From positions 1 to 61,747 of the forward strand of contig JABINC010000017.1 of NCBI GenBank assembly GCA_018697675.1: DNA of 61,747 nucleotides. The letters are read 5' to 3'. A program made the position numbers and the translations under genes. Under the pieces are notes generated by a model. The model did no database searches. It was not told the origin of the DNA and saw only the letters and a program-made list of their open reading frames with translations. This DNA is from Candidatus Peregrinibacteria bacterium. Its GTDB lineage: Bacteria > Patescibacteriota > Gracilibacteria > UBA1369 > JABINC01. Below, piece by piece: positions 32,815 through 55,308 of this stretch; the first letter of the stretch is position 1; the number at the start of each line of letters is the position of its first letter.

Positions 32815-33384
32815 CTATTCTAAGTGTTTTGAGAGCTTGTTCACTCCAATTATATTGGTTGAATCTTCGACTAAGTCCTTTATGAACTTATCATTACATT
32901 CGATTCTATACAAGAAATCATCTTTTGACATTATACTGAATTTTATTGGCTCATCTGTTTTCGCCTCCTCATCTAGCAGTTTTTCTAGTTCTGTTTTGTT
33001 TACATTCCCTACAAGTAGGAGATCGCAACTCGATTTTTTATTAAGAAATGCCCCAGAAAGCACCAAAAAGTGCACATCCCCGAGCTTGCTTATCTTTTTT
33101 ACAAGTCCTTCTTTTGAATTCATGCCTTTCATTATAATAGAATGAAGTTCATTGAATAAAAGGAAGTTTTTATTAACTGTATAGTATTTTTTCCTGTTTT
33201 TGGTACGTGAACGAAGCAGTCCAAGTCTTTTTAGACTATCAAGTTCTCGACGCACAGAGTTTATCTGCTCATCCAGCATACGAGTTAATTCCCGGATGAA
33301 GAACTCTCCATCGGGGTTTTGCATAAATACTGCAAGTAGTTTTACTCTCGTACGAGAGGTGAACAGGGCTTTTAACAAATCCAT
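32815..33384 (-). CDS. Winged-helix DNA-binding protein fused to a degenerate nucleotidyltransferase-like domain
   Basis: N-terminal wHTH (FFIRELTRMLDEQINSVRRELDSLKRLGLLRSR); C-terminal FLVLSGAFLNKKSSCDLLLVG resembles a minimal NTase motif lacking one Asp. Confidence 0.7.
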   Translation of the reverse strand: MDLLKALFTSRTRVKLLAVFMQNPDGEFFIRELTRMLDEQINSVRRELDSLKRLGLLRSRTKNRKKYYTVNKNFLLFNELHSIIMKGMNSKEGLVKKISKLGDVHFLVLSGAFLNKKSSCDLLLVGNVNKTELEKLLDEEAKTDEPIKFSIMSKDDFLYRIECNDKFIKDLVEDSTNIIGVNKLSKHLE

Positions 33385-35796: not shown

Positions 35797-38700
35797 ATGG
35801 CAGTACCTCCACAAAAACCAGAACATGAACACAGAGATGTCGAAGATCGTCGCGATAGTATGGCGTCAGATCTAGAGTCTAGGGAAAGGCTTGGGTTGAA
35901 GGCGAAGCCTAAGAGGAGTTTTACTAACTTAACGACTACTACAGTCGCGACCGGTAACCTTGATTCAACCAAGGTAGAAAACCCAAAGGATGTTGCAGAG
36001 ATCATGATTGATTCTCTCAAAGTTGATAAGTCTTCGTTGTCTCCTACGATGAGAACAGTTGTTGAGGTTTATGAATTGATTTTAGATCCGACCGCACGAA
36101 TGACTCGTGAACTTCGTGATGATCACTTAGAACCACTTAGAGCGCTTCGAGATACTGGAACGCCTCTAGATGCAGAACAAGAAGAATTGCTCAAAGCTCT
36201 CGAAATGTTGGATAGATCAGCTCCGTTTACCGAAGATGATCCACGGGCAGATGCCGAAAGAGGAGAACCTAGGGGAGAATTAGATCCTACTAGGAAAACT
36301 GCCATAGAAACTGGCGCTCAGGTACTTAAAGATAAGAAAAAAGAATATGATGATGCGGTAGCTGCTGGGACGGATCCAACTACCCTACCCCCTGCCCTCA
36401 CGCCAAAAGAAGAAACAACTCTTCAAGTTTACGAAAAACTTCTAAGTCCTCGTGGAATTATGGAAGAAGATTTGTATGAAGAGCTTGTCAGGTTGGAAGG
36501 CGCAAAGAAAAAATATGATGATGCGGTAACTGCGGGGACTACTCCACTACCTACCGCTTTAACTACAGAAGAAGCTGCCCTACTGGCAGCGCTACAAGAA
36601 CTAGAGACTATTGCTCCATATGGACCTACATCTAGACCGAAGGATCCTACCGCTATTGCTGTTGATTCGGCTGCTGAGAAAGAAAAAATTCGTGACAGAT
36701 TGGCTGAACTAACTATTCAGAGGGACCTTCTAAGTCCTTGGGAGCAAGAATTTATATTATTGCTCGATGATAAAGATTTTTACGGGACTGGAAGGTCTAC
36801 AATGTTCTTCTTGGAAAAAGGGAATTTCAATCCGGATAATTTCACAGAAACAAAGTTTGCAAGAATGATTGATCAATTTGCTGCACAACAAAGAGCGGAA
36901 GGTAAACTTGAAGATAAAATACCAGTGCTCGCAGCAAAACTTTCGGAAATCGCAACCAATATTCGAATGATTCAAGAGGAAGCAAAGATTAAATTGCAAT
37001 TCGAACAAGAGTTAATCGGTGCAGCAAAGGAAGAAATGGACCAAATGCCGAAGCAAAAATTGACGCGACAAGTGAAGCGAAGGCTTCGAAGAATTCGATT
37101 TGGGCTTGAAAGAGAATTTGCTAAGAATCCAAACAAAGGACTACTTGCACTCGGAGCTGGAGTACTTATGCTCGGCTGGGGACTGACAAGTGATAATCCA
37201 TATGTAGAGAAAATTCGCAAAGCAATGTACGGAGGTACTGGGCTTATACTTGCTGGAGTTGCGGCTGATTTTGCATCTGGCGCAATACTCGATAAGCCGC
37301 TCTCAAAGCAATTTGAAGAAATGTCACGGCTTGCAGGGACGCGGATTTCAGAAAATGTAGACAATTTGTTCAGACAGCACACTATCGGAGGGATAGATGC
37401 TGACATGGATACACAGCTCAGCTATCTGAGTACTACATTTGGACTTCTCAGGCACCGATCATTTGGTGAAGTATGGGATTTATATGAAAAAGCGAAAACA
37501 TCTGGTTCTAATAAAATTAGAATTCCAGGTATAAATGAAAATAATATTTTTGATAAACATTCTAGTTCTGAGGCATTTTTCCTTGGAATGCAGGTATTTG
37601 ATAATAGATATGGAGATGAAATCCGGCATTTACTGGAAACAGAAGGGCATATTCCTGGAGCTGGACTATCGATGATGAATGTTATTACACATCTGGTTGC
37701 CCTGGATCGTGATTCTAGAATTAAAGCTAAACCATTTGAATGGATAAAAAATCGATTCGGAGCCGGACTCGAATGGGTATGGGCCAAAGGAGGCAAACTC
37801 TCTGACAGCATGCAGCATATGCTTAGTGCAATGGTTGGGACAGCACATGGTATGGAGAAATATTTCCAATCTATGTTCCCAGAAGATAAGTATGGCAAGA
37901 TAAAGGTAATGTGGAACGAGAAAGTAATTGTACTTCCTGGAGGAGTGCGATGTGCTTTTGATTATAATTATAGGACTCTAGTTCAAGGAAGAGATCCAAA
38001 AGAAGTTGTAAGTGGGATTATTCTGAAAAACAAACATGACGAAGAGCACACAAAAGTCTTCGGCCTCGAAGCCAATAATAAAGAAGACATTGAAAACTTC
38101 GCTAAGCAATTGATCCGGGATACTGCAGTGCATAAGATGCCGAAGGTTCTGGAAGGAGCTGGAGATGTTTGGGATATGAAAGAATTCGCAAGGACCATGC
38201 CTCTTGATTGGAATGATAGTGAGAAAAGTTGGTTTGTTCCTGGTTTCGAAGTCGGGGCGAAGACTTACAAGATAAAAACTGTTGATGAAGATGGGAATCC
38301 TACTACTGAAACCCGAACTCTCGAGTTCCCGGGTAGCAGAAAGAATGTTTTCCTTAATTTGAAAGAAAAAGGAGATGAAGGTACATTTATGATTAGGTTC
38401 TACCGAAATGACAAATTCTGGGATAAGACCGCCCACCCTACAGAAAGCCTTGCTCAAATGAGAGCTAACATTGAAAAAGAGAATTTCAAGAACTGGCTTC
38501 TAGATGCATATCATTTCCCATTCTCTGTAAATGACATTGAACTTGAAGAGAAAAACTGGGAAGACATCCGCGAAGGCCGAGCGTCTTCTATAGAAGGGTA
38601 TGTAAAAAGTACTACCAGACGTATCGGGTTTACGGGTGAATTCAAGGATATGGATCCTATTATTGAAGAAAGCAGCAGCAGTGCCGTTGGGGATATAATA

Positions 38701-40239
38701 AAATCAGCCCCTATGATGAGTGCAGCTGGCCATACTCAGCTTGTATTTGAATTTAAGGTCCCGGGCACAACAGATGTCGACAAAACGCAATACTGGGAAG
38801 CATTCCTCGTCGAGCTTATTACAACGCGATTTGATAATCTCAAATCACTTGCTGGAAAAGGGAATGAAAAATGGTTCAAAGACTTATTCTCTGTTCAATG
38901 GCCATGGGAGTACTTCAAAGATATATTTGGAGGAGGTTCAATAGATGAGACTGAATGGGCAAATCAATTGGAAAGTAGAAAACAATTACTAATTGAGATG
39001 GTAGAAGGTGGGGACATAACCCCAGATAAGACGGCTATGCTAAACGACACTCTTCGCTCATTGGCCAAGGTTGAAGAAGCTTTAGAGGAGAAGATAGGGC
39101 TCGAACAAGAAATAGACAAAGATATGTTCGAACAAGTGCTTACTGATCTCGAAACACTTGAGATGCCACCAGAAGCAAGGGCTGAATACACGGCTTTCAA
39201 ATCACGACTCGAGCACTTTTATAATTTTGAACCAGAGGCACTTCAAAGAACTCTGCGAATATTCCAAAAACTTCTTTATACAAAAGACGCTACCGGCAGA
39301 ACTTTGAAGACTATTCTAGAAGATCCAAGTACTACTCCTGAAGACAAGCAACACGCCGTGGAATTCCTGCAATTCTACAGTGAAAAAATGATTATGTACT
39401 TCAATCAAAGCAAGAGCGGTAAAGGGCTTGGGCAGATCTCACTTATAAAAGATGTGGGACCTTTGGAGATACAAATCAATGAATCCCTGGAAAATGATGG
39501 CAGTATAAAACGTGATTTCACAAATGGATATCAAAAAAATGTATGGCCAACACTTGCGGAATACATGTCTCCTGTAGATGGAAGTCTAGAAAGAAAACGA
39601 TTCGATGTAATTAGAAATATGCATGAGATGCATAGGCTTTGGATGTACCACACGAATTTGGTTATGCAGCCACTTTTAACTAGGCTTGCCTGGAAACCAT
39701 TTGGGTTTGATTATCATACCAGAGGTGACATAGATCCTCAATTGATAGAATTTCATCCTCACAACATAATAAGTGGAGGAAAAGTTTTAGGATTTCCTAT
39801 GATCGGAGATGCTCTTGAACAGACATTCCAATTTGAGCATTACGATATCATCTGGCGAGTATTGGATACACTTGGTCTTTACCCGAAAGGGCTTGCTGGC
39901 GGATTGAAATACCCTACTATAGGAAGTGTTAACAATTTCAAACGTGATGCAGGGAATATGATGGAACGACGCATCCAAGAGTACACTACGGATGAAGCGC
40001 TGACTCTTTTCATGAACCCAGCGACAGTAACTGCTGGAGAAAGGGCTACGGCCATTACTGGTCTTTTCCCAGGCGATCCAGAAGCTCAAGCTAAAGTTTC
40101 TGGAGCTGGCTATGAAGATATAATGTACTTAGCATTCAACAAAAACATGGAAGACTTATGGGGATCAAATCGTCTGAGTAGCAACTTAATAGGCGAAGGC
40201 CTCCATGAGGTCGTAACTAAGCCTGTTGTTGGTCCTTAA
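35797..40239 (+). CDS. Giant protein of unknown function (1480 aa), membrane-associated
   Basis: Long ORF; paired hydrophobic segments GLLALGAGVLMLGWGL and GGTGLILAGVAADFASGAIL; N-terminal degenerate duplication. Confidence 0.85.
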   Translation: MAVPPQKPEHEHRDVEDRRDSMASDLESRERLGLKAKPKRSFTNLTTTTVATGNLDSTKVENPKDVAEIMIDSLKVDKSSLSPTMRTVVEVYELILDPTARMTRELRDDHLEPLRALRDTGTPLDAEQEELLKALEMLDRSAPFTEDDPRADAERGEPRGELDPTRKTAIETGAQVLKDKKKEYDDAVAAGTDPTTLPPALTPKEETTLQVYEKLLSPRGIMEEDLYEELVRLEGAKKKYDDAVTAGTTPLPTALTTEEAALLAALQELETIAPYGPTSRPKDPTAIAVDSAAEKEKIRDRLAELTIQRDLLSPWEQEFILLLDDKDFYGTGRSTMFFLEKGNFNPDNFTETKFARMIDQFAAQQRAEGKLEDKIPVLAAKLSEIATNIRMIQEEAKIKLQFEQELIGAAKEEMDQMPKQKLTRQVKRRLRRIRFGLEREFAKNPNKGLLALGAGVLMLGWGLTSDNPYVEKIRKAMYGGTGLILAGVAADFASGAILDKPLSKQFEEMSRLAGTRISENVDNLFRQHTIGGIDADMDTQLSYLSTTFGLLRHRSFGEVWDLYEKAKTSGSNKIRIPGINENNIFDKHSSSEAFFLGMQVFDNRYGDEIRHLLETEGHIPGAGLSMMNVITHLVALDRDSRIKAKPFEWIKNRFGAGLEWVWAKGGKLSDSMQHMLSAMVGTAHGMEKYFQSMFPEDKYGKIKVMWNEKVIVLPGGVRCAFDYNYRTLVQGRDPKEVVSGIILKNKHDEEHTKVFGLEANNKEDIENFAKQLIRDTAVHKMPKVLEGAGDVWDMKEFARTMPLDWNDSEKSWFVPGFEVGAKTYKIKTVDEDGNPTTETRTLEFPGSRKNVFLNLKEKGDEGTFMIRFYRNDKFWDKTAHPTESLAQMRANIEKENFKNWLLDAYHFPFSVNDIELEEKNWEDIREGRASSIEGYVKSTTRRIGFTGEFKDMDPIIEESSSSAVGDIIKSAPMMSAAGHTQLVFEFKVPGTTDVDKTQYWEAFLVELITTRFDNLKSLAGKGNEKWFKDLFSVQWPWEYFKDIFGGGSIDETEWANQLESRKQLLIEMVEGGDITPDKTAMLNDTLRSLAKVEEALEEKIGLEQEIDKDMFEQVLTDLETLEMPPEARAEYTAFKSRLEHFYNFEPEALQRTLRIFQKLLYTKDATGRTLKTILEDPSTTPEDKQHAVEFLQFYSEKMIMYFNQSKSGKGLGQISLIKDVGPLEIQINESLENDGSIKRDFTNGYQKNVWPTLAEYMSPVDGSLERKRFDVIRNMHEMHRLWMYHTNLVMQPLLTRLAWKPFGFDYHTRGDIDPQLIEFHPHNIISGGKVLGFPMIGDALEQTFQFEHYDIIWRVLDTLGLYPKGLAGGLKYPTIGSVNNFKRDAGNMMERRIQEYTTDEALTLFMNPATVTAGERATAITGLFPGDPEAQAKVSGAGYEDIMYLAFNKNMEDLWGSNRLSSNLIGEGLHEVVTKPVVGP

Positions 40240-40266
40240 TAAATAATAAATTTAATCATTTTTTCG

Positions 40267-41892
40267 ATGGGAGAAGCTGTTAGAAAATGTGGAGACGAAG
40301 GGAGGAAGGAGCCTTGTCCTGGAGAGCCATTTGGATTGGAAAGGATTTTTAGTGGAGTTAAGAATGGGATTAAAACATATGTTGATAATTTTGAAAATCT
40401 TGGTGAAATAGCTCGTGGGATTGAAGATATTATTGGAGAGAAATTCGAAGATTTCAAAAGCATTGAAGAGTTTGAAGATCAATTTTATAAGAAAATAGAA
40501 AGTAAGATTGACACCTTAGATCCAAAAACCGCTATTGACGCTCTGATTTTTTTCTTACCTATACTTTTGCTAAAAGATCCTGAATTACATGCCCAGCTAG
40601 AGGAAGGATTATCTATATATTTTGACGAGGATGATCTACCTATTACCAAGAAAAAGCTTGAAAAAGACGTACTTTTGGCTGCAAAGATAGATTTGGCAAA
40701 GGCAGGGTTTAAATTAGTAACCATGAATGAAGCAACGATTGAGGGAGTTCGTACAAGCCTAAAAGCAAACACTAAATTTAAAGATGACACTATTGAGAAA
40801 ATGATTGATAAGGTTCAGGAAGTTGAACTTACCGATGAACAAATCATAAGAGCGGTCAATATAATCACTGGATATCCTGAAGCGAATGATGAATTTGCTG
40901 ATGGAGCAGAAAAACGCGAAGAGAAAGAAAAAGAAGGGGAAGAAGACCATGTTATTGAAGTGCCCGATATAACCGCTGAAGATATTGCCAGAGCTGACAA
41001 GCGTAGAAAAGAGCTTGAGGGATACAAGGGGCCTGTTTATATACCTACTGTAGAAATTCCGAAATTGGACCCTGAAAAAGATGAAGAATTAGATCCTTCA
41101 AAACTACCGGGAGATGAATATGCCAGAATCCGCAGGATTGCCGAATGGTTAAATAAAGATACAGAAGACTATACCGGAGAAGATAATCGCAATTTCATAA
41201 GAAGGAAATTATCAAAGAATTTTCATATAACAGAGGCTATTCCCCCTAATACAACAGTATTCAATGACAATCTTGAAGATTTTCTGAGTTGGTGGAATGG
41301 AGCTGTTGAAACTTATGAAGACCTAGAAATACGCAACCGAGAAGAAGCTCGGCTAGTTGTAAACATGATGTGCGGAGTTTACCCCGGTAACGACCCTTGG
41401 GGGAAAAGAGAACAAGAACATGCTAAGTGGGAGGAGACATCTGACACATATTGGGAAGGAGTTGGTAAGACAAGACAAGATGCAGAAGATGCTGAAATTG
41501 AGCGCTTGCGGAAGGAAGAAGAGGAGCGTTTGCGGAAGGAAAAAGAGGAGCGTGAACGAAGAGAAAGGGAGGAACGAGCTCGTAAAGAAAGAGAAAGGCG
41601 TGAACGAGAAGGAGATGATGAGGACGAAACTGAAGATGAGGATGAAGATACCGATGATGGAGGTCCAAGCGGTGGAGATCCAAGCTCGGGTGGTTCTGAT
41701 AAAACTGGCGGAGATAAAGATGATAAGGAGTCTGGCTCGGATAAGGGAGGTGGTGAGGAGGATGAGGATGAGGAACCTGCTGCAGAAGACCCTGCCGCAG
41801 AATTAAGAAGAAGAAGAGAAGAGGCCAAGGCAGCAGAAGAAGATCAGAAAACAACAGGCACTCCTAGAGATAGTGGTGGAGTGCAAAGATAG
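40267..41892 (+). CDS. Hypothetical protein (541 aa) with charged E/R/K-rich helix and acidic/Gly-rich tail
   Basis: ORF 28 bp after the giant gene; EIERLRKEEEERLRKEKEERERREREERARKERERRERE. Confidence 0.8.
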   Translation: MGEAVRKCGDEGRKEPCPGEPFGLERIFSGVKNGIKTYVDNFENLGEIARGIEDIIGEKFEDFKSIEEFEDQFYKKIESKIDTLDPKTAIDALIFFLPILLLKDPELHAQLEEGLSIYFDEDDLPITKKKLEKDVLLAAKIDLAKAGFKLVTMNEATIEGVRTSLKANTKFKDDTIEKMIDKVQEVELTDEQIIRAVNIITGYPEANDEFADGAEKREEKEKEGEEDHVIEVPDITAEDIARADKRRKELEGYKGPVYIPTVEIPKLDPEKDEELDPSKLPGDEYARIRRIAEWLNKDTEDYTGEDNRNFIRRKLSKNFHITEAIPPNTTVFNDNLEDFLSWWNGAVETYEDLEIRNREEARLVVNMMCGVYPGNDPWGKREQEHAKWEETSDTYWEGVGKTRQDAEDAEIERLRKEEEERLRKEKEERERREREERARKERERREREGDDEDETEDEDEDTDDGGPSGGDPSSGGSDKTGGDKDDKESGSDKGGGEEDEDEEPAAEDPAAELRRRREEAKAAEEDQKTTGTPRDSGGVQR

Positions 41893-41910
41893 AGCCCTGC
41901 CCATTCCAAC

Positions 41911-44900
41911 TTACTCATCCAACTTTGGCTGCCTTATAAAGTCATCTGTTTCTTGAATGAATGCTATTAAATCTTCTACATTATTGAACCTCCCCAATAC
42001 TTTTGAAGGAAGCATATTGCCATCTGTATCTAGTTTTCTACCCACATACTGAACACCTGCTTCATCTGTATATAATTCCCATTCAAAAGTTAACAACGTT
42101 ATAAAATTGCCATCCATATTCCCATCTCTGTCCAATAAATCCACATAGAAATTACCTATTAATTCATCTGATCTCAGGGCACCTTCTGCGTCCATATAAT
42201 CTGCGCCAAGTGGATTAACAAGGACTGTATGAGCGCTACGATTGTCATATGTAGTAAATAGCAAATGATTGTTCCTCCCCCCTGTTGCAAAAACTCCTTC
42301 GGGCATTACAGACTGCTCTGCATTCCCTTTATTCACGCCTTCCCAAAGCACATGCGCAAATAATGGATCAAGCATATGCTTATGCTCCAGTCGCACTAGT
42401 CCAGCATTCGAAATATCTTCTTGTGATGCTTTAGAGAAAAATGAAGCATTTGGATCAGCTCCATCCATATAAAACAATGAAAATGTTCTTGGCAATTTGA
42501 ATTTCCACATGTCTTCTGATGTAAATGGAGCGTCGAATTCAACATATGCTATAGGATACTCTGCTGTTTCAATGTAAATTGGCACTCTTACAACATTAAG
42601 CCCCCCTATATCTACTACTTCGGCTTCTTTTGAGTAAATTCCATACTGCTCAAATTTCTCTGTTTCAATCCCTATTTTCTTTTCTGCCTCCTGCAAAGTC
42701 CTTTGTACGTTATAGTTATTCAGATCTTCATCAAGATCTTCATTATTCATTAATAATTCTCTGATCCCCTCCCAATCTTCTGGCGAGCGTCCTTTGCCCA
42801 GAAGTTTCCTACGCTCCTTACGAAAAGCTTCATGATCAATACTGCTCTTGCTTGGATCCATTGTGTCCATCAATTTTACGTACTTCTTGTGCTTATCATC
42901 TTCATAAAATAAGATTTCATAGTAGGCATCCTTAATTATCTTGTACTGATCCCAAAACCTTTCTGGGAATATAAATTTATTATCTTTTGCTATACGCGCA
43001 TATAGTTTCGTTGCTGTGATAAAGAACTTGATCTCACGGGCTGTCATTTCCCTGCGATGAATTAACATTCTTGACACATGTGGATAAAAGAATTCATCCA
43101 GCCACCTTAGAGTTAAAGTAGGATCACTTGATATGAGTTCGTATAAACTAACTGTGTCATTAGATTCAAATTTCACTCCCAATGCTTCTTCAGAAACTCT
43201 CAACAGTCTGGCTATTGGCCTATTGACTGTTTGTTCAGTATGACCCTCGTAATCTCTATGCCATCTATCCCTTGCATATTCAGCGTGCCAAGGTTTGTCT
43301 ACGCTCTCATATCTATCAGCTCCTTCGTCTAATATTCTCGACATATCGCTTCTGGTTGTAGAAGCTGCAAACATTCTCTCAATACAAAAATTCTCCAGGT
43401 TATAGTCGGCTCTTTGCAAGATAGGCCTTTCTTCTTCTGAAATCGTTACATCTTCTATTTCAGATGCATCTATTCCTGGATCAGAAGCTGTCTCCAAGAG
43501 TATTCCAAAATCACCTATATTATTTCGATTTACTTTCAAAAATGACCCAGGACGCAGATATGTGTTTTCCATGTGTCTTTTCCATTCTGGATGAGGTTCA
43601 TGATATACGCCCTTTTTATCCCTTCCTCCAAAATAATGTCTATTTAATTCAATGAATTCTACGGGATCAATACCACACATGATTAGATCTTGAATCGTAG
43701 GTGGTCGCATTCCACGGGCATATCTATCTACATGCAATATCACCAACCCGTCATCTTCGTCGACTACTGCAAATGGAGCGTCTTCTTCAGGTCTTTCAAA
43801 GGTTCCTTCATCGATCACCCTTGACTGCAATCTGACAGGCTTTGCTAAATGTTCTCTGTATACGATATTCGGTTCCCCTAATTTTTCTATTTCTTCTGGC
43901 GTCCTTTCCTTGTCTCCTAAGAAAACTGAGAAAATAACACCTAGCTTTTCTCCATACCGCTTTCCACTTTCTGGAAGCTTAAATGCTACGTCTTTAGGGA
44001 ATGGCACTCTTAAGAACTGATATTCTGCATTCCAACCATTTTGATATAACCTATCGACTCCAAATCCTCCTTTGGTTAATTCTGCAAGACTTACTTCATC
44101 TGATTCTTCCTCATCGGGAACTTTCACCTCCTCATACTCTGGAGTGTAATCATCCAGCACCTTCCAATCAATTCTAGATGCTCCACGCAAAGCAAATGCA
44201 AATTTGAGAGCATATTTACGACTTTCTTTTGAGGCTTCTTGAATCCTTATTCTTCTTTCCTTCTCTTTTCTCTTAGCCTCAGACAGAGTGCCTTTCCAAA
44301 ATTTAGCACTTTCTCCAGGATATGGCCCACTGATTATATAACTTACTAAACCTCCATAATTATCTGCTGCATTCCCAAATCCTTCTGGGACTTTGTAACC
44401 TGGCCCTCCATTGTATTTTAGTGCAGCTTCAAACCATGTTCTTATATTTCGACTATTAAATTTGGCCCCAGCAATTCTTCCGGTCCCAAAGAAACTTTCC
44501 GTTCCATATCTTCCATCCTCAAATGGGTAATAAATATCTTCATTTTCTACATCTTGATAATCCCCGTATCTTCCAATTACAACTTCTGTACCGTCTCTAT
44601 TTATGACATAACTTCCATCTCCTTTGTATTCCACCTCCCCTTCTCTATACCCGACTAACCCACCTGCCGGCCTTGCTGTTGTGTCCATATGCTGGAATGG
44701 TCCTGCGGCACCTACCATTGACATCATTGGCACATTACCGGTTTCTATTAATCCGATTGCTGCGATCACTTCACGTGGAACGCCCGAAGCTTTTGAGGCT
44801 TGGTCTATATTATATAAATCTTCCAATGAATATGCGCCCCCCCCAGATGTATTGTAATATGTGTATGGACTAGCAAGTGAGGTAAATTCTCCTGAATGAG

Positions 44901-45339
44901 CAAATCCAAGAAGCCTTACGGCTTTATCTATTCCTGTTTTCACAAACCCATCAGCTCTTGCGATATGATCTACGACACCTTTTGACTTCCCTAAATCCCT
45001 TTCATATGCTCTTTTGAATTTTCCCCCATGACTTTCTGCATATCCTTCTTCTATCACATCTCCCCCCATCTCAATAACAGGGCTGTCTGCAGTTAAGCCG
45101 TCTTCACTTTCTGGACCGTAGTCTTCGGCGTAGTATGGTTCGTAGGCGGAGTCATTCATGTCTCCGGTTGCTGGGTCGTATCCGAATTGATCTCGGAAAT
45201 CCTCTAAGTCGCCTTCGTAATCAACATCAAAATCCATGTATGCAGGATTATCGATAGATGAGCTTTCCCCAGATGTGTTTGATCTTTCGCGTGACGGCTC
45301 TAGGCCATCATCCCTTATTGGTTCTTTATCTTGTGCCAC
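41911..45339 (-). CDS. SLT-like (lytic transglycosylase) protein with LysM-like segments (1142 aa, GTG start)
   Basis: GVPREVIAAIGLIETGN...GAAGPFQHMDTTARPAG...EAALKYNGGPG; PPTIQDLIMCGIDPVEFIELNRHYF...YLRPGSFLKV. Confidence 0.75.
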   Translation of the reverse strand: MAQDKEPIRDDGLEPSRERSNTSGESSSIDNPAYMDFDVDYEGDLEDFRDQFGYDPATGDMNDSAYEPYYAEDYGPESEDGLTADSPVIEMGGDVIEEGYAESHGGKFKRAYERDLGKSKGVVDHIARADGFVKTGIDKAVRLLGFAHSGEFTSLASPYTYYNTSGGGAYSLEDLYNIDQASKASGVPREVIAAIGLIETGNVPMMSMVGAAGPFQHMDTTARPAGGLVGYREGEVEYKGDGSYVINRDGTEVVIGRYGDYQDVENEDIYYPFEDGRYGTESFFGTGRIAGAKFNSRNIRTWFEAALKYNGGPGYKVPEGFGNAADNYGGLVSYIISGPYPGESAKFWKGTLSEAKRKEKERRIRIQEASKESRKYALKFAFALRGASRIDWKVLDDYTPEYEEVKVPDEEESDEVSLAELTKGGFGVDRLYQNGWNAEYQFLRVPFPKDVAFKLPESGKRYGEKLGVIFSVFLGDKERTPEEIEKLGEPNIVYREHLAKPVRLQSRVIDEGTFERPEEDAPFAVVDEDDGLVILHVDRYARGMRPPTIQDLIMCGIDPVEFIELNRHYFGGRDKKGVYHEPHPEWKRHMENTYLRPGSFLKVNRNNIGDFGILLETASDPGIDASEIEDVTISEEERPILQRADYNLENFCIERMFAASTTRSDMSRILDEGADRYESVDKPWHAEYARDRWHRDYEGHTEQTVNRPIARLLRVSEEALGVKFESNDTVSLYELISSDPTLTLRWLDEFFYPHVSRMLIHRREMTAREIKFFITATKLYARIAKDNKFIFPERFWDQYKIIKDAYYEILFYEDDKHKKYVKLMDTMDPSKSSIDHEAFRKERRKLLGKGRSPEDWEGIRELLMNNEDLDEDLNNYNVQRTLQEAEKKIGIETEKFEQYGIYSKEAEVVDIGGLNVVRVPIYIETAEYPIAYVEFDAPFTSEDMWKFKLPRTFSLFYMDGADPNASFFSKASQEDISNAGLVRLEHKHMLDPLFAHVLWEGVNKGNAEQSVMPEGVFATGGRNNHLLFTTYDNRSAHTVLVNPLGADYMDAEGALRSDELIGNFYVDLLDRDGNMDGNFITLLTFEWELYTDEAGVQYVGRKLDTDGNMLPSKVLGRFNNVEDLIAFIQETDDFIRQPKLDE

Positions 45340-45358
45340 GATAGTTTTGAATTAATTT

Positions 45359-45631
45359 TTATTTTTTGTTTTCTTTAGAACGAGCCTGTATATAGTCCTC
45401 CATACCTTTTTCTATTAATTCTTCTTCCATCTCTATCATTTTATCTTTTAACTCAGGGGCTTTTTCCACCCTAACCTTCTCTTCTGTAACAAGATAATCA
45501 TATAGTTGACCTACCTGCCCTTCTGTTATTCTTCCAGCTCTGATGTCATCCACTATTTGAGTTTTTGTTTCCAGTGGGAGCACCGAAGCTTTGAGAAGTT
45601 CTACGAAATGTGTGTTTATATCTTGTGTCAT
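45359..45631 (-). CDS. Small hypothetical protein (90 aa)
   Basis: Compact spacing between the 2545 aa and 1142 aa genes; charged helical composition. Confidence 0.65.
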   Translation of the reverse strand: MTQDINTHFVELLKASVLPLETKTQIVDDIRAGRITEGQVGQLYDYLVTEEKVRVEKAPELKDKMIEMEEELIEKGMEDYIQARSKENKK

Positions 45632-45660
45632 TTTTTTGAAATTAATTAATTTTTTGTTTT

Positions 45661-48600
45661 TTAGACGTCTTCATCTTCAGGCAATTCTATGATCCCATCT
45701 GCGAAAAGAGCATTGAAATCCAGTTCTCCAGTTTCTGTTATGTATGCTATGACAGCCTCTGGATCTTCTTCTATTATATTATGAAGATCTTCGATATCTT
45801 CTTCCATCTTTTCAAATTCTCGAATACCTTCTACTCCGCCCGCCCTCTCGTATCGTAGTTGCTCTTTTTCTACATCAGTCAACTTCCACTGGTCCGGATC
45901 GTCAAACACCCCGTACTTATCTAGGATTCTTACATGATATTCAGCGTCTTTGACCAAATACTCATGCCCTGCAAGCATTATATGCGCTTCATCACGAGCT
46001 TCTGTGTCCGCCATGTGCCTCAACGTCCTGATAGCAAAATCTCTACCTGGGATATTATCAACTCCGTTGTACTTCTCTTCAAATGTTTCGTATCCGAAGT
46101 CTATACCTAATTCGTGGTATTCGAAGTCATAACCTTCATTTACACTAAATGCCGGCTCTTTACGTTTCCGTTCACTTACCGCATCTCTAAACCTTCTCGC
46201 TTCCGCCTCTTCTCTCCTACGAGTTAGTCCCATATGCCCCGAAACTCCTAACCAGAAAAATGCTTCACTTACGTATGGAGACATTATATGAGCCATTTCT
46301 GTACGAACTTGCTGGAGTTCAATATCCATCACCTCTATTTCCTGTGCCATTTCTAGTATTCTAAGCTCTGTCTCTGTCAAATCTAGCTCTCCTGCAAGTG
46401 GCTCATAATCATCCCCTTCATCCCAAGGATCCGGCTCTTCTCTTTCTCTCCTGTTATAGCGAGAACCATCAATATTGTAATCATCTTCATATCCGGCTTT
46501 TTCCCTCTCCTCTAATTTTTCTAAAAGACCTTCCATAGTACTTTCACTCATCATTGCAGCCTCTAGCGCTTCTTCCGTTCCTACGAGAACCTGCGCCGCT
46601 TCACTAACCGCTGAATCCTCGAAATCAACTAAAGCTTCAGGATCCCTACTTTCCATCGCCTCTAATAAGGCAGTTAATTCTTCCAGCTTGTCTTCATATT
46701 GCCTTCTATCTTTTCCAGGAATATTCTCGGCCGACTCCATAGCCTCTTCATACCCTTCTTTCTTCCTTCTAATTTCCACAATATGCTCATCGAGCACTCT
46801 TTCGAATTCAGCCATAGCTAAATCCCTTTCTTCTCTTGTGCCCTCTATAACACCTTCAACTAAGCTTCCGCTTACAAGGTCCTCCAAAGTCTTCACTCTT
46901 CGTTCCAAGTCATCTACTTTTTCTTTTCTTTCTGCAATCTCTTCTGTGATAAATAATCCTTCTAGAGTATTTGGTATGTATGTATCTGACCGCTCAGCTA
47001 GATCGTCCACACGTTCTGGAAATCCTACTGCTCGAACTGCGCTCCGCATGTATCTTGATGCACTGTCGCTTCGCTCCTGCTGAGTTCTCAATCTCTCTTC
47101 GTAGCGTTCTTGCCATAAAGTGTGACTAGGAATATCAAATTCTGGATTACTTTTAGCTAAAGCCACTTGAGAAACCGCATCGTTCAACACTACTTCTTCA
47201 ATTCTCATATCAACAACTGTACGTGCATATTGTTGATGCTCCGGCCTCATTTTTTCTAGCCAAGGCTCAAACGTTACGTCTTTTAGATCCTTTTCCTCCT
47301 TCTTTTTCGCAATAATTTGATTTACAAGATCTTCGAATCTATCTTTGGCATCAAGATGTTGAAAATATGCTTCTGATGCCGCTTCATATCCTCCTGGAAC
47401 CATGCTATCTGGCAATGCATCAAATGGTACGTATTCATCAACTATGTCTGCATACTCCTCTAGAATTGCATCTGCAGTTTGCATTTCTTCATAGGCTTCT
47501 TTTTGTTGCATTTCTAATTCGAATCGCTCAACCCTTATATTATATAGGTTTTTTGGAATTGCTGTATTTCTCACCATTTCCCTAAGTGCCTTTATTTCTT
47601 CTTCTAGCCTTACTACTATTTCTACGCTTTCTCTATATTTCTCTAATAATTCCAAATCCCCCTTCTCCTCTCTCATAGCTATCATTATCTCAATAGGAGA
47701 GCTTAATCCAGATAAGCCTGCAGACTCAATATATTTCTTGTAACATGTATCCCTATCACTCACAGCAGAACCTAGCTCCCACTTTATATGTTTATTCCAC
47801 TCCCCTACCATCTCTTCTATATCGCCTGGGAGATGCTCATGTTGATAGGATGTTACCGCTGTATGCTGAATAATTCTCTCAGAATGATCTAATACTGCTC
47901 CGCTTGTCCAATCTCCTGTCACAGGAAATACCGGAAGCTTTTCCCAATTTAGTGCATTCCAAGAATTAACTCTTGTTACGGTACTGCCAGCTATATTAAC
48001 TATATCCCCCTTTGAATTCCCCATTTCAAGCGCCATCAATTCAGCTATACCTCCTCCTGAAGTAACCATACCGATCCTCCCTAACAGCTCTGCTTGCGCT
48101 GCATGACCCGCTGCATATCCTTGTGCTATATGGATTGCTCCTTCTGCTCCTTTCACTGCATAATAAAATCCTAAAGCTAGGCCAACGGCAGCTTTCAATA
48201 CTGGATGAGAAATAATTGAAGCTACCAACATTCCAGCTCCAGCTCCGGCGAACCCTCCTGTGAGCCCAGCACCAAAGTAATATCCGACTGTTTCTGAAGA
48301 ATCCTCCGTATTCATCTGAGATGCTGCATGAGTTGCCATGTATAGACCCGCTATATACATCAGCATAAATCCTACTTCAGCCACCATCCCTATCTGTTTT
48401 ACGGCGAGTTGTTGTTGATATGTCATCATTGGTTTTCCTTTTGGGCCAAGCCGTCTACCTTCCCAATTTATGTCATATGTTTCTATCGGCTTTGCCTCTT
48501 TAATCGCAGCTTTTTTTATTAGTTCTATAATATTCGCTGCATTTTCTCTCAGATTTGCAAACATCTCTCTTATTGCAGGAATTTTCTCTGCACCGCTATG

Positions 48601-51600
48601 TCTAGCACGAATTCTTTCAATTATTCCTTCTGCAAATTTAGCAGGATCATTTTCGTATACTTCAAGTGGTGGCTTAACTTCTTTTGGCTCTGGAGCAGCT
48701 TCAGGAACTGCTTCCGCCCCTACTGCAGGCTCTACAAGCCTTGCTTCACCTCGAGCTGGAGTTCTTTCCAATCCTGGGTTGTCAGCAACCAATTCTAGAG
48801 GGCTGTTTGTTGGACCTTTTGGTGGTTCTCCACCGCCGCCTCCTCTTCTTCCTTCGGTTCGATTGCTCACTTCTTCTGGAAGTGGAGCGCGTTTTCTTGC
48901 TAAAGATCCCTCGACCTCGACTTCTGTCCTAAGCTTTGGAGCTTCCGGTGTTCGGAGTTCGAACACGTTACTAGGCCCTTCTACTGGGTTCGAAGCCGTA
49001 CCTCTAACTGGGTCTGCAGCTCTGGCCGTTGGGCCACTTTCTCCACTTGCCGGACCTTTAGGTGGTTCTGGCATTGGCCTCGGAGCAGGTTCTGATCCTC
49101 TCATTGGAGCTCCTGGATCAGAAACTGGTCGTGGTGTTGAAGGTTTTGGTTCTGATTTTGGAGAATGTACTGCTTCGTCCACAGCTATTCTTTCCGCTCT
49201 TCTCTCCGCTGCCCTTGTATCTCTTGCCGCCTTCCTACCTCTTTTAAGATCTTCTTCACCTAAAAGATTTACCCTTTGTTTTGCATCTCCTGGGGTGCTT
49301 CCTCTGCGTCGCCGTCGCCATCCCCATCTCCTCCTTCCCTTTTTAGCTTCTTTTTCACGTACTTTTATATCTTCAAGCGTTTCTGTTGGCTGTACCTCTA
49401 CAGGTTCTGGAGTGGTAGCTGTTCGTTGCTCTAGACCTAGGATATCTCTTATATAAGATTCTATTTCTAGAAAACTTCTAACCACATGACTATCTGTAAC
49501 TTTTCCTTCAATTAGATCTAAAGAGGCGTCAACTATCCCTTTTGTTCCCATTCTTCCATCAACTCTTCTTTTGCATGACTCTTCAATAGCTGCCACCTCT
49601 GCCTCCGGTACATTGTGCCAGTTTTCTCCATCAAAGAATCTCGCCTCCACCCTTGTCTCTCCACCCTGTGATTTTTCAGTAAATTCTACTTTCATTGTAG
49701 TCTCTTTCCCTCCTATTATTTCTTCAAGAGTGTATGTAGTTTTATTACCTTGTGTAGTTTGAGTCAGTTTTTGTTTTATATTTTTACTTTCAAATTTGTC
49801 TGGAGCTTTAACTTCTTCTTTAGCTTTTTCAACCAATGTATCTCTCTCCCCCCCTGTCACACCTCTCTGAGTTGCTTTTCCTCTCGCTTTTTTGGCAGCC
49901 TCCTCTCTTAATTCAATTTCAACCTTATCCTTTAATTCTTCTGCTCGTTCGTAAGGACCATATTTTATCTCCTCCCCTTCTTGCCCACGGCCTTGAAAGG
50001 TTTCTGTATCAGGAGCTGGGTAACCTACGTTTTCTCCCGGCAATATTGTTCCATCTTCTAGAACAAAATAATGTTTTATTGTAACTTCTTGAGTCCACCT
50101 GTGTTCTCCCATCACCCATCTTTTTGGCCCTCTACCCCTCTCTGCTTCTGACAAAACCCTTCCTTTTAACTCTCCAACTTCCTGTACAATTATATGCTCT
50201 CCTTTCCCAATATTTACACCTGAATCTGTTCTTATATGGTATTCCATTCTTTCAGCAACTACTATACGGCCAGCCCCTTTGCGCCCCTTGTTTATCTCTA
50301 CAGAATCAACCCTACTCGCTCTATCTGTCGGATTTACACTTCCGTCTAATGCACCCGTCTCATTCCCTGCATGCAAAACTACTCTTTTTCGTCCTAAATC
50401 AAGATCGCTAAATGGAGTTCTGTTTGCACGAGATCTTTCTAATCCTAATTTTTCTTCTCCAATTTTTCCTAGGGTACGGCTTGTTATTCTCATCCCCCTA
50501 GATGCTTTACCTCTTAACCCTGGATTAGTCTCTGCCGTTTCGCCTCCTATGAATGTTCCAATACTTTCAACCCCCCATATTATACTGGCGAGTGCAATTA
50601 ATAAATCACTTATCCTATCTATTTCCCAATCCCCATCTTCAAACAATCCCGTTGGTTCATATTGCATCGTCTCTGGATTCCATTCAAAGTCGTAATATAC
50701 ATCATTTATTAATATCTGTACTCCCACACCTATAGATAGTGGGGCAAAGACTGGAGCTCTTCCTATTGTCTTGCCCACCTTACTATTTCTGACAAATTGT
50801 ACCGCTTCAATTTTCCCTGCCCCCTGCAGCAAGGCGTTGGCTCCAAATCCAAGACGTTCTAGCGTGTAAGCTCCAAGTCTTATTGTAGAGCCCCCTGTCC
50901 TCCAAATAGCTGCTCCTGTATTCCCAACAAGTCCCCCCGGCATCTTTTTACCCCATTTAAATCCCCATTTTGAAGTAGCTGTTCTTGCTTGACCCAATGT
51001 CCACTGTGCCCCTTGCCACGTTCCACCGGCTGCCATTGATAAAGATGGATGCCTCCCTGAAATCATGTTCCATACCCAAAAGTTTTTTATCCAATCACCA
51101 TGAGATATTTCTTCCCATGCATACGGTAGAGCCCCTCCAAGAGTGCTCATAAATGCCATTCCTGCGCTGCCCCCCTCTTTATCTATTTTTTTAAAATTAT
51201 CATAAGGGTAGTGTAACAAGATATCTGAAACCATATCCATTATACAATATCCACCTACGACCTTTGACGCACCTGAGAGAAAGGCACTCCCATCAAGGGG
51301 GAATGACAAAAGGCTAACTGTTGGAGGTATTACATTCCATGAGGTTTCTGCAAGCCAATGACCTGCGCCCATCCATCCAAGACGCGGCATCAACTCTTCT
51401 ACTTTCCATCTGGCCCAATGGTCCGTAGCTTTTCTTATATCTCTTTGCCACTCTTTATCCTCTTTACCTTCTTTTAAGGCCCAAATACGTCTCGCAAGAT
51501 TTTTCCCATCGAATTCTAAATCAAATCTATCACCGTTTTTTTCAGCTTCCCTTACAAACTCTTCTATCTTGTCTGGAGTAAGACCTAGAAGTGTAATTGT

Positions 51601-53298
51601 CTCTCCTACCGTTGCCCCACCCCAGGCGAAGTCATCTTCTTTCTCCCACCCTTTTGGAGTCAGACCTCTCTTTGCAGAATCCAATGTTCTACCAAATATG
51701 CTTCTTTTATCCCATACGTGGCCCGCATCCTCCTCCATAAGAGAACTATTTAAAATTTCCTCAAATTGTCTTCCAGCTACTTCAGCGTCCATATCCAACA
51801 TATTGTCAAAGAAATCTTCTAGCTTTGGATAGCTTTTCAAGCCTTGTAATATGCTTTCTACAGTTTGATCACTGCGATCTAGAGATTTTTCCAATACCCG
51901 TTTCCTACCTGCCTCTGACCATTCACTTCCGAGAAACCCTCTTATGCCTCCTTCCTCAAATAATGCATCTATTTCTGCTGCTTTTTCTTCTGCATATGCC
52001 ATGGTGCTATCATAAGCTGCTCCTGCCATCTCAGGCAGTTCTTTCCCAAGTTGCCAAGCATCATTCCATCTATTTAAAACCCATTGCTTAACTCCACCTT
52101 CTTTTTCTTGATCTTCTCCAACTTCAATACCCAATTCTTCATCGGTCATTTCCTCAAATGCTTCCTCAAAAAACATTTCATCTGCAGTTATTGCTTTGAA
52201 ATCCCCTTCTTCCACATAATGAGCAAGAAGGTTAACCGGAGACCTATCTCCCCCCATCAGATTTATTCCGCTTTCTCCCACTATACAAAACATATCCATA
52301 AGCTTTGAATAAGGGGAACTATCCGCTGATAGATATTTATTTACCGCTATTGCTCCAAAAACATCTTGGAATGTCGTTTCAAGTCCCGAGCGCCCCCCTC
52401 CTCTAGCATCATTATCTTCAACTATTTTTATAGTTATATCCGTTACTAAATCTGTCAAAATTGCAAATGATGAATCTTCTGGAGCTTTTCTTCTTTCAAA
52501 TGCGCCTATATCTGGATTGCTTCTAAACTCTCCACCTTTTGTATGACCAGCTTCATAAAGGTCTAGCATTGCTTCAATGGCGAGATGAGCTTTTGTTACC
52601 CTCTCATCACCAATGAGCGTTGTCCTCTGGCCGTACTCTTCTAACACCTTAACCATATACCCTCCCATCATCTTCATAGTTTCTTGCGCTTCTTTGTATT
52701 CTAAAAAAGCGCTGGGTGGATTTGGATCACTTAAAAATGCATCTTCTGGCAAATCTGGGAAATATGGCTCTATCATTACTTCTGATACAAACTGGCGAAT
52801 CTCTGCGCGATCTTCTGGTTTGAGTTCTTTTCCTTCTGCCAGTTTTTGCAAGCCTGATCTACATGTGTCCACAGTTTGTTCACGTGTCATTTCTGCCATG
52901 GCTTGGTATTGCATTTCAAATTGGGCGCCGGTGATCATTCCTTTTCGGAAATCTGAGCGGATTGAGTCAAATTTTTCTAAAAACTCAACAGCTTCAACCA
53001 TTGTGATAACGTAATTTCCGTCTCTATCGAGCAACATACCTGGCAAAGCTGCCGCTCCTAAAATTAAGTGCAGTGCTCCTATTCCGGCTACATCTATAGC
53101 CATTTCCTTAAGTTCATCTTGATCTAGTTCTTCTGGAGTCAATCCTTGAAGTTGCTCCCTTAATAGGGGCATATCGAGCCCCATACGTTTTCTTAATCCA
53201 CGTTCTAGTTTTCGTATACCGACTCCTTTGTAAGTATCATCTATACCTTCGAACCTATCCTGTCGTTCTGGTTTGTCTGGGTTATTTGTTTGTGCCAT
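45661..53298 (-). CDS. Giant membrane protein of unknown function (2545 aa)
   Basis: Uninterrupted 7.6 kb ORF; several hydrophobic segments, Pro-rich/Arg-rich linker, Gly-rich TM pair (YYFGAGLTGGFAGAGAGMLVASI), coiled-coil C-terminus. Confidence 0.88.
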   Translation of the reverse strand: MAQTNNPDKPERQDRFEGIDDTYKGVGIRKLERGLRKRMGLDMPLLREQLQGLTPEELDQDELKEMAIDVAGIGALHLILGAAALPGMLLDRDGNYVITMVEAVEFLEKFDSIRSDFRKGMITGAQFEMQYQAMAEMTREQTVDTCRSGLQKLAEGKELKPEDRAEIRQFVSEVMIEPYFPDLPEDAFLSDPNPPSAFLEYKEAQETMKMMGGYMVKVLEEYGQRTTLIGDERVTKAHLAIEAMLDLYEAGHTKGGEFRSNPDIGAFERRKAPEDSSFAILTDLVTDITIKIVEDNDARGGGRSGLETTFQDVFGAIAVNKYLSADSSPYSKLMDMFCIVGESGINLMGGDRSPVNLLAHYVEEGDFKAITADEMFFEEAFEEMTDEELGIEVGEDQEKEGGVKQWVLNRWNDAWQLGKELPEMAGAAYDSTMAYAEEKAAEIDALFEEGGIRGFLGSEWSEAGRKRVLEKSLDRSDQTVESILQGLKSYPKLEDFFDNMLDMDAEVAGRQFEEILNSSLMEEDAGHVWDKRSIFGRTLDSAKRGLTPKGWEKEDDFAWGGATVGETITLLGLTPDKIEEFVREAEKNGDRFDLEFDGKNLARRIWALKEGKEDKEWQRDIRKATDHWARWKVEELMPRLGWMGAGHWLAETSWNVIPPTVSLLSFPLDGSAFLSGASKVVGGYCIMDMVSDILLHYPYDNFKKIDKEGGSAGMAFMSTLGGALPYAWEEISHGDWIKNFWVWNMISGRHPSLSMAAGGTWQGAQWTLGQARTATSKWGFKWGKKMPGGLVGNTGAAIWRTGGSTIRLGAYTLERLGFGANALLQGAGKIEAVQFVRNSKVGKTIGRAPVFAPLSIGVGVQILINDVYYDFEWNPETMQYEPTGLFEDGDWEIDRISDLLIALASIIWGVESIGTFIGGETAETNPGLRGKASRGMRITSRTLGKIGEEKLGLERSRANRTPFSDLDLGRKRVVLHAGNETGALDGSVNPTDRASRVDSVEINKGRKGAGRIVVAERMEYHIRTDSGVNIGKGEHIIVQEVGELKGRVLSEAERGRGPKRWVMGEHRWTQEVTIKHYFVLEDGTILPGENVGYPAPDTETFQGRGQEGEEIKYGPYERAEELKDKVEIELREEAAKKARGKATQRGVTGGERDTLVEKAKEEVKAPDKFESKNIKQKLTQTTQGNKTTYTLEEIIGGKETTMKVEFTEKSQGGETRVEARFFDGENWHNVPEAEVAAIEESCKRRVDGRMGTKGIVDASLDLIEGKVTDSHVVRSFLEIESYIRDILGLEQRTATTPEPVEVQPTETLEDIKVREKEAKKGRRRWGWRRRRRGSTPGDAKQRVNLLGEEDLKRGRKAARDTRAAERRAERIAVDEAVHSPKSEPKPSTPRPVSDPGAPMRGSEPAPRPMPEPPKGPASGESGPTARAADPVRGTASNPVEGPSNVFELRTPEAPKLRTEVEVEGSLARKRAPLPEEVSNRTEGRRGGGGGEPPKGPTNSPLELVADNPGLERTPARGEARLVEPAVGAEAVPEAAPEPKEVKPPLEVYENDPAKFAEGIIERIRARHSGAEKIPAIREMFANLRENAANIIELIKKAAIKEAKPIETYDINWEGRRLGPKGKPMMTYQQQLAVKQIGMVAEVGFMLMYIAGLYMATHAASQMNTEDSSETVGYYFGAGLTGGFAGAGAGMLVASIISHPVLKAAVGLALGFYYAVKGAEGAIHIAQGYAAGHAAQAELLGRIGMVTSGGGIAELMALEMGNSKGDIVNIAGSTVTRVNSWNALNWEKLPVFPVTGDWTSGAVLDHSERIIQHTAVTSYQHEHLPGDIEEMVGEWNKHIKWELGSAVSDRDTCYKKYIESAGLSGLSSPIEIMIAMREEKGDLELLEKYRESVEIVVRLEEEIKALREMVRNTAIPKNLYNIRVERFELEMQQKEAYEEMQTADAILEEYADIVDEYVPFDALPDSMVPGGYEAASEAYFQHLDAKDRFEDLVNQIIAKKKEEKDLKDVTFEPWLEKMRPEHQQYARTVVDMRIEEVVLNDAVSQVALAKSNPEFDIPSHTLWQERYEERLRTQQERSDSASRYMRSAVRAVGFPERVDDLAERSDTYIPNTLEGLFITEEIAERKEKVDDLERRVKTLEDLVSGSLVEGVIEGTREERDLAMAEFERVLDEHIVEIRRKKEGYEEAMESAENIPGKDRRQYEDKLEELTALLEAMESRDPEALVDFEDSAVSEAAQVLVGTEEALEAAMMSESTMEGLLEKLEEREKAGYEDDYNIDGSRYNRREREEPDPWDEGDDYEPLAGELDLTETELRILEMAQEIEVMDIELQQVRTEMAHIMSPYVSEAFFWLGVSGHMGLTRRREEAEARRFRDAVSERKRKEPAFSVNEGYDFEYHELGIDFGYETFEEKYNGVDNIPGRDFAIRTLRHMADTEARDEAHIMLAGHEYLVKDAEYHVRILDKYGVFDDPDQWKLTDVEKEQLRYERAGGVEGIREFEKMEEDIEDLHNIIEEDPEAVIAYITETGELDFNALFADGIIELPEDEDV

Positions 53299-53363
53299 TT
53301 TTGTTTTGAATTAGTTTTTGTTTTTATTTTTTGTGTTAGTAAGAGCTCTCTTGTTGCAACTCT

Positions 53364-54359
53364 TTATACTGCTGCTCTCATAGCTTCTGGTGGAGCGCCG
53401 TTTGCTGCTCCTGCTGGCATCTGTTCTACAGGTGTCATTCTTTGGTCCATGGCTCCTCCATTGGCTGGAGTGGTTGTTCTTGTGGAGCTTCCGTATTTGT
53501 CTAAAGCTCCATATGTACTTCGGCCTTCGCGGAGCCCGATAGGTACGATTAAGCGATCCAAACCTCTCTCTACATGATCTCCAACTACTGCCATTTGTTC
53601 ACTGAAATGCTCTCCTGCTGAGAAAAATCTTCGGAATGAACCGAAAGCGTATTTATTGAATTTTCCAATGACAGGGATATTTGACCCCATATTTTCCATA
53701 ACTGCGAATGGGCGTCTAAGAGTTCCTGAAATCAATTTATTTATACCTCCAAATGCGCGAAATGGCATACTTGCTACATCCGGAACTAACAATGCGGCCC
53801 CGGTACCAAGCGATATTGCTGTTCTGGGCACCCAGCCAATAACTCCGCTAGCAAACCTCGTATAGCTTGATCCTGTGAAAGGATGCCAAAGCAAATTCCA
53901 TGCTGAACCAACAACATTTTGAGCTGTATCAATTCCAATTTCTTTACCGGTGCTCCATATGTCCTGCACAATTTCTGTGTCTGTTCCAATTGAGAAACTT
54001 TCCTTGACGTGCTCTAAGGTGCTTCCGAATTCTTCACGAACTGCCGCAACAACCCCTGCATATTCTTTTTTTCGCTGATCTCTAATTGCTACATCTACAA
54101 TTGATTCGTATAAACCATGATACAAACCATGTTTTGGAGCATGCCAAGCAACATCGGCTATTCCGTCTGGCACCTCAGACCAATGAGCCCGCGAGAAAAA
54201 TGTCCCCGCTTTTTGGAGGGCATCCATAGTCCCACGATTCTCAACTTCCCCTGGAGTAAGCCGATCCGCTCCACCACGTGCCATTCCGAGTATTCCACCC
54301 GCTGCAGCGATTGGTAGTCGTACTGGAAGCGTTGCTAATTTTAACAGTGATCCGATCAT
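53364..54359 (-). CDS. Hypothetical membrane-associated protein (331 aa)
   Basis: First gene of the minus-strand set; hydrophobic segments VRLPIAAAGGILGMARGG and WVPRTAISLGTGAALLVPDV. Confidence 0.75.
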   Translation of the reverse strand: MIGSLLKLATLPVRLPIAAAGGILGMARGGADRLTPGEVENRGTMDALQKAGTFFSRAHWSEVPDGIADVAWHAPKHGLYHGLYESIVDVAIRDQRKKEYAGVVAAVREEFGSTLEHVKESFSIGTDTEIVQDIWSTGKEIGIDTAQNVVGSAWNLLWHPFTGSSYTRFASGVIGWVPRTAISLGTGAALLVPDVASMPFRAFGGINKLISGTLRRPFAVMENMGSNIPVIGKFNKYAFGSFRRFFSAGEHFSEQMAVVGDHVERGLDRLIVPIGLREGRSTYGALDKYGSSTRTTTPANGGAMDQRMTPVEQMPAGAANGAPPEAMRAAV

Positions 54360-54585: not shown

Positions 54586-55308
54586 ATGATTTATAAAGAA
54601 CTTTTTGCCGTCTACTTGCCAATAATTGCCATTGCGACCTTTGCTGTTTTTAATGTTGTAAATGTGAGTGCAATGACCTCTCAGGAGGCTATTTCTGAGT
54701 CTTCAGAGTACCTCAGTCTAGACGGCAATGAAGGGAGAAGTCAAGGGTCGGAAAATGAACTTCCAAATGTAGACTCGATGGAAAGTGATGAATACATAGG
54801 AAATTATGGATTTGCAAAAAATGGAGGCTTGAAAATTTATGGAAATGAGACAAAGAAAAATTGTAAAGAAAAATTAGTAAATGCTCTAAGTGCTACTCCC
54901 GATGGACTGATCCCGAGCTCTCTTGAAATTGAACTTGGAGATTTTGACACTCCTGGGAAAGCTAGTAAATCTGGCGTGAAACTTGATTGTGATGTGCCAG
55001 AAAGTCGGTTTTTACGTATTTTTTGGCATGAACTTGGGCATTTTTATCATCTGAATGGGGGATTCGAAGGATTTGAGCGTTATTTTGGAGGGGACGAGGG
55101 GGATGGAGCTGGTTTATACAACCAAAACGGTCAGCCCAACTACATAACAAATTATGCTGCGACCAATCTTGAAGAAGATATCGCGGAGAGTTTTGCAGAG
55201 TATCTGCTGGATAAAGAAAGATTCCAGAACAAAGCAAATACCTCCCCTGCCCTAGAAGCAAAATATGAAATAATTGAAGCTTATTTTATTTCAGTAGATT
55301 ATAAATAA
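54586..55308 (+). CDS. Secreted zincin-like metallopeptidase
   Basis: Signal peptide-like N-terminus; FWHELGHFYHL (HExxH) and downstream NLEEDIAESFAEYLL. Confidence 0.72.
   Translation: MIYKELFAVYLPIIAIATFAVFNVVNVSAMTSQEAISESSEYLSLDGNEGRSQGSENELPNVDSMESDEYIGNYGFAKNGGLKIYGNETKKNCKEKLVNALSATPDGLIPSSLEIELGDFDTPGKASKSGVKLDCDVPESRFLRIFWHELGHFYHLNGGFEGFERYFGGDEGDGAGLYNQNGQPNYITNYAATNLEEDIAESFAEYLLDKERFQNKANTSPALEAKYEIIEAYFISVDYK

Follow-up and report, generated by a model that had tools for sequence, protein, structure and literature searches.

The 61,747-nucleotide stretch of DNA analyzed here (the window), a single contig (C73) from a Candidatus Peregrinibacteria genome of 1.46 Mb and 94.6% completeness, contains what is close to certain to be a conserved, lineage-specific, and fast-evolving giant-protein locus. 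The conserved unit is order-wide and consists of a giant protein (B), a small partner (s), a second giant (A), and an exported zinc protease (P), which are encoded beside trigger factor. The locus is nearly pure coding DNA and holds a fixed place throughout the order, with an identity of about 30% between relatives versus about 60% for their trigger factors. Rapid divergence at a fixed place points strongly to an important lineage-specific function under unusual evolutionary pressure. A search of the accessible literature for such a locus or its families found no description; the protein families and the locus appear to be new, and a known mechanism for them may still emerge. The locus supplies concrete targets for the study of the lifestyle and the cell interactions of Peregrinibacteria, of which little is known.

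The locus in the window and in a congener

The locus and its neighborhood comprise the following features, given with their coordinates in the window and their strand:

34135..35445 (-): trigger factor; Pfam Trigger_N/FKBP_C/Trigger_C above cut-off; conserved anchor, divergent from the locus
35797..40239 (+): P0001, giant of 1480 aa, assigned to the B family by profile
40267..41892 (+): P0002, 541 aa, acidic and coiled-coil-rich
41911..45339 (-): P0003, 1142 aa, GTG start, putative SLT-type lytic transglycosylase domain
45359..45631 (-): P0004, 90 aa, helical
45661..53298 (-): P0005, giant of 2545 aa
53364..54359 (-): P0006, 331 aa, Gly/Ala-rich with weakly hydrophobic stretches
54586..55308 (+): P, exported zinc metalloprotease of 240 aa with HELGH motif; order-wide end of the locus
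57326..59830 (+): 834-aa protein, member of the neighborhood; linked to the locus in both members of the genus

The coordinates and strands that the first-pass annotation had assigned to six ORFs (P0001 to P0006) were all correct. The end that it had placed at position 54359 does not hold, as the exported protease and the 834-aa gene also belong to the neighborhood. The spacers among the six ORFs measure 18 to 65 bp, and 351 bp lie between the trigger factor gene and the divergently oriented P0001. A Shine-Dalgarno-like sequence is not evident ahead of most of the eight locus genes, whose leaders are A/T-rich. The 834-aa gene is separated from the locus by an AbiEi/AbiEii-type toxin-antitoxin pair (55330-56794, -), which shares 64 to 73% identity with its counterpart in a congener and is found near the locus there, too.

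The congener comparison was made with one genome, G001 (contig C29), where all six genes are located beside trigger factor in identical order and relative orientation. Since the congener keeps all six, the ORFs are real genes. The window proteins of 1480, 541, 1142, 90, 2545, and 331 aa correspond to congener proteins of 1537, 199, 1043, 86, 2069, and 275 aa with identities of 38, 32, 33, 29, 29, and 39%, respectively; the 199-aa counterpart of P0002 covers only residues ~203-413. Identity is higher for the flanking genes: 82% for the winged-helix gene, 61% for trigger factor, 63% over part of L19, and 64% for AbiEii. The proposal that the six genes form a system was borne out by this co-occurrence in kept order and orientation as far as a conserved multi-gene unit is concerned; the exact six-gene set was seen only in the genus.

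A similar contrast was observed in two other families, with identities of 57 to 59% for trigger factor versus 28 to 30% for B. A very close pair of loci (L015 and L016) shows 95% identity for trigger factor and 94% for s versus 53% for giant A overall. The first ~180 residues of this giant are 34% and the last ~635 residues 69% identical; the ~640 residues in the middle gave no BLAST match, and the synonymous divergence (dS) of A is 1.21 versus 0.26 for trigger factor. Because the middle lacks a match and dS is high, this part of giant A looks like a segment that was swapped rather than one that underwent rapid substitution alone.

Order-wide families beside trigger factor

Anchoring on trigger factor and on the winged-helix gene, we gathered loci across the order, of which 38 unique ones could be read for 6 kb or more beyond trigger factor. 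A divergent ORF of at least 500 aa is present within 6 kb of trigger factor in all 38 loci, compared with 7/38 on the other side. The usual arrangement at the order level is A(giant)-s-B(giant)-C-P(exported Zn-protease), with sizes of about 600-1460 aa (A), 100-140 aa (s), about 540-1450 aa (B), 150-360 aa (C), and 220-300 aa (P), and the gene content between the anchors differs among the families of the order. The second anchor is a winged-helix-like protein of 189 aa (32815-33384, -), which is linked to trigger factor across the order and is possibly a regulator of the locus. It retrieves 80 named loci, the majority from Peregrinibacteria or Peribacteria and nearly all the remaining ones from Gracilibacteria, Patescibacteria, or unplaced bins, which places the window in Ca. 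Peregrinibacteria/Peribacteria.

With BLAST or two-sequence profiles over the order, matches of the giants were confined to the genus, and scanning genome and viral contigs for P0001 patterns found no relative; A and s vary too much in their alignments for such scans. BLAST alone hence presents the giants as single-genus orphans, whereas the synteny anchor combined with iterated profiles reveals a family that can be tested and that has a defined core, partner proteins, and two enzymes. The iterated profiles assembled 28 members of B, 25 of s, and 18 of A across the order. According to the profile search, B is present in 51/89 genomes of the order (43/62 good ones), nearly always as a single copy. 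Of the 21 genomes with both genes located, 18 have B no more than 10 kb away from trigger factor, and 3 carry the two on different contigs. Other families of the class contributed 13 genomes with weaker B matches (E 4e-11 to 2e-4), mostly in frames of >1100 aa. One of these class-level loci (L118) also carries an s protein (E=5e-18), and its B giant of 1833 aa (7543-13044, +) ends in a C-terminal Peptidase_S74 chaperone-of-endosialidase domain (E=8e-20). Beyond the class, one marginal B match was obtained in a sample of 389 genomes of the phylum. In two loci of another class family (L115 and L117), exported lamin-tail/SNase proteins, together with an RNase Y-like gene, take the place of trigger factor near the B-like giants.

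By its profile matches, P0001 is the B-family member of the window. A B profile built from 24 relatives, excluding P0001 and its congener, recovered both P0001 (E=8.4e-12) and the congener protein (2.4e-18), with the next best nonmember at 0.039, and hhalign assigned P0001 a probability of 96% against an independent B profile. The conserved core comprises ~400 aa (residues ~313-714 of P0001), and the mark of the family is a pair of Gly/Ala-rich segments of weak hydrophobicity, separated by about 13 residues (near 449-465 and 480-498 in P0001), which is conserved family-wide with mean Kyte-Doolittle values of 1.66 and 1.18. The structural comparison proposed in the first-pass annotation brought no relative: the AF2 model of the B core was of low confidence overall, with a confident helical stretch at ~550-620 of P0001, and Foldseek against PDB returned nothing at E<=0.001. 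Comparison of the A family with PDB gave coiled-coil matches only, which we put down to chance; s showed a weak match to FliG (E=0.005).

The remaining window proteins stand apart. Apart from the SLT motif, relatives of P0002 to P0006 outside the genus were not detected, and neither profile nor hhalign comparison revealed homology of P0004, P0005, or P0006 to s or A. P0004 sits where s is expected, but it matches the s profile at E=2.8 and with an hhalign probability of <1%; a Pfam match to WXG100, the partner protein of ESX/T7SS, was found neither for P0004 nor for four s proteins. In the window genus, the positions of A and s hold unrelated or unrecognizable proteins, and s and A are undetected in some other B loci, too. 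Searches with the six proteins against Pfam, NCBIfam, and PHROGs found no credible domain in the giants. P0005 shares residues 123-607 with the 834-aa gene (~400 aa) and contains the Pro/Arg-rich linker noted previously (~1300-1540). Its hydrophobic segments are located near 67, 850, 899, 1636, and 1691. Hydrophobic segments had been described for the giants; they are present but just weakly hydrophobic, and no signal peptide was found in any giant.

Linked enzymes and membrane association

P0003 is a putative lytic transglycosylase of the SLT type with a real motif, as the first reading of its sequence had suggested. The domain spans residues ~165-340 with Glu199 as the catalytic residue, and a profile of P0003, its congener, and a window paralogue matched lytic transglycosylase C in PDB (E=1.7e-4) with the catalytic-Glu helix aligned. 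The Glu is invariant in these three sequences, all of which share the Gly/Gln motif; a LysM-like stretch was recognized by eye. P0003 had no Pfam match at E<=1 and did not reach the gathering score of the SLT Pfam families, and AF2 modeling of the SLT region from a two-sequence input gave a pLDDT of 31. Like the SLT lytic transglycosylases MltC and MltE, P0003 has a catalytic-Glu helix and a GxxGxxQ-type motif, but unlike them, its domain lies below Pfam detection, is known from the motif, and is embedded in 1142 aa in which hydrophobicity analysis found neither a signal peptide nor a TM anchor. At the locus, the SLT domain was seen only in the version of the window genus. The paralogue of the SLT region, a 560-aa protein (21166-22848, -) located 19 kb from the locus, possesses an N-terminal hydrophobic anchor.

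Protease P starts with an N-terminal hydrophobic segment, and its HELGH and EDxAESF motifs are conserved in the congener. The P profile family was found across the order at the same place of the locus in the different families. The protein resembles the Peptidase_Mx zinc metallopeptidases, which are likewise exported and carry HExxH, although the window protein (21.7 bits) scores below the Pfam cut-off of 27 bits; the orthologue of L019 scores 31.1. An HExxH-type motif (HETRH) also occurs in a 251-aa protein of the window (31225-31980, -) that lacks a signal peptide and a Pfam match.

The locus proteins are likely membrane-associated, but the signs for the side of the membrane do not agree. 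A composition classifier for cytosolic versus exported proteins (cross-validated AUC of 0.87) scored A as cytosolic-like in 20/21 cases, P as exported-like in 22/22, and B as exported-like in 15/42 before the hairpin and 31/42 after it. The cysteine content of A and B is about 0.2%, near the 0.09% of trigger factor and below the mean of 1.26% of the lineage's exported proteins, a comparison to be read against the 0.84% of the general cytosolic-like set itself. The charge flanking the B segments does not settle the topology, and the S74 domain of the L118 giant points outward, as does the composition of B after the hairpin. Of the membrane-spanning complex with its own peptidoglycan enzyme envisaged in the first-pass annotation, the peptidoglycan-lytic domain within a conserved system was retained; a span of the envelope or an outward-facing position was not, given the missing signal peptides, the cytosolic-like A, and the low cysteine content of A and B.

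Possible functions of the giant proteins

The reading that we favor, tentatively and at somewhat less than an even chance, is a lineage-specific, membrane-anchored scaffold or machine of giant proteins with linked wall and protease enzymes. B would consist of a long, mostly helical N-terminal region, a long C-terminal part, and between them the two Gly/Ala-rich segments, which may be inserted in the membrane or rest on it. In the rest of the order, it is encoded together with A, whose middle is probably replaceable and whose C-terminal part is apparently kept, a helical s of ~120 aa, and the exported zinc protease; in the window genus, the 2545-, 331-, 90-, and 541-aa proteins and the signal-less transglycosylase fill the locus. 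In favor of this reading count the divergent ORFs in 38/38 loci, the mostly single-copy B near trigger factor, the recovery of P0001 by an independent B profile, the family-wide pair of segments, the lack of signal peptides, the cytosolic-like A, the exported protease at a constant place, and the SLT motif. We infer that the giants form a scaffold or machine that is anchored to the membrane from its cytoplasmic side at a specialized envelope site, where the exported protease and, in the window genus, the transglycosylase would open or trim the wall and might also process exposed parts of the complex. Against the scaffold stand the exported-like composition of B after the hairpin and the S74 domain, which point outward, as well as a P0003 with no visible export route, the weak hydrophobicity of the B segments, the missing homology of P0004 to P0006 to s or A, the low confidence of the B core model, and the empty Foldseek search.

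These outward-pointing signs would suit a surface adhesin or host-interaction system, anchored by the hydrophobic segments of B with the C-terminal part outside and diverging rapidly by adaptation to different partner cells, which we consider rather unlikely. The segment replacement in A and the giant membrane proteins of Ca. Vampirococcus lugosii, proposed for host attachment (PMC8080830), are in line with it, but a signal peptide and an adhesion domain are absent, A is cytosolic-like, A and B are poor in cysteine unlike the lineage's exported proteins, and S74 is confined to a single protein. A signal-less SLT domain next to giants that have weakly hydrophobic segments is, in turn, what would be expected if giants made in the cytoplasm left by a dedicated, Sec-independent route and inserted in the envelope or a neighboring cell, with the transglycosylase breaching the peptidoglycan much as phage ejection proteins do. 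Such a delivery is unlikely: the SLT domain is restricted to the window genus, the weak PHROG matches of the P0003 motif (internal virion protein, E=0.006; lytic tail protein, 0.04) are explained by the shared SLT motif, and no secretion ATPase or channel is linked. The absence of a known secretion ATPase from the locus had already been recorded; the TraG/VirB4-type ATPase of the window genome, a member of a family present in 19/21 genomes searched, lies elsewhere as an orphan beside gyrase (L128; G000 contig C63, 8732-10879, +). A T4SS was rejected, since this ATPase, the element common to both, is unlinked on another contig and other components were not recognized near it or in the locus. 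That a lineage-defining, Sec-independent membrane machine of hypervariable giants contacts or penetrates other cells, which would make it a new cell-cell interaction apparatus, seems quite unlikely.

The locus might also be no single system but a chromosomal position that tolerates large, unrelated, and fast-changing genes. The genus-restricted proteins of 2545, 331, 90, 541, and 1142 aa (the SLT motif excepted) and the family-dependent content between the anchors argue for such a position, but we regard it as improbable because different families show the A-s-B-C-P order again, each of B, s, A, and P forms a family of homologues, and the congener keeps the order and orientation of the six genes at ~30% identity. 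The least credible of the alternatives, with only a slight chance, is a domesticated phage tail or tape-measure locus. In length, long helices, weakly hydrophobic segments, and a signal-less SLT domain, the locus resembles the tape-measure and ejection proteins of phages, and one A member out of 18 has a match to a tape-measure PHROG (2e-4). Unlike those systems, the locus is without tail genes and recurrent PHROG matches in A and B (0/28 B cores match a tail family), and it occupies a fixed, single-copy chromosomal position across the order. A search for phage relatives of P0003 found none. A contractile tail, tailocin, or eCIS was rejected, as the sheath (PF04984) was detected in 0/31 genomes with positive control genomes. 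We detected no homology to known adhesins, phage tape measures, or secretion systems, in agreement with the original description of the apparatus as uncharacterized.

Very large and variable proteins from related CPR lineages have previously been reported for Ca. Vampirococcus lugosii (PMC8080830) and Ca. Peribacter riflensis (PMC4736985), and some of them are predicted to be membrane-located or extracellular. They resemble the window giants in size and variability, but most of those described carry interaction domains or signal peptides, and the accessible passages mention no trigger-factor locus, B/A/s family, or linked protease (PMC8080830, PMC4736985). Elsewhere in the window, a 905-aa protein (6453-9170, +) has a signal-peptide-like N terminus and repeats that appear CARDB-like by eye.
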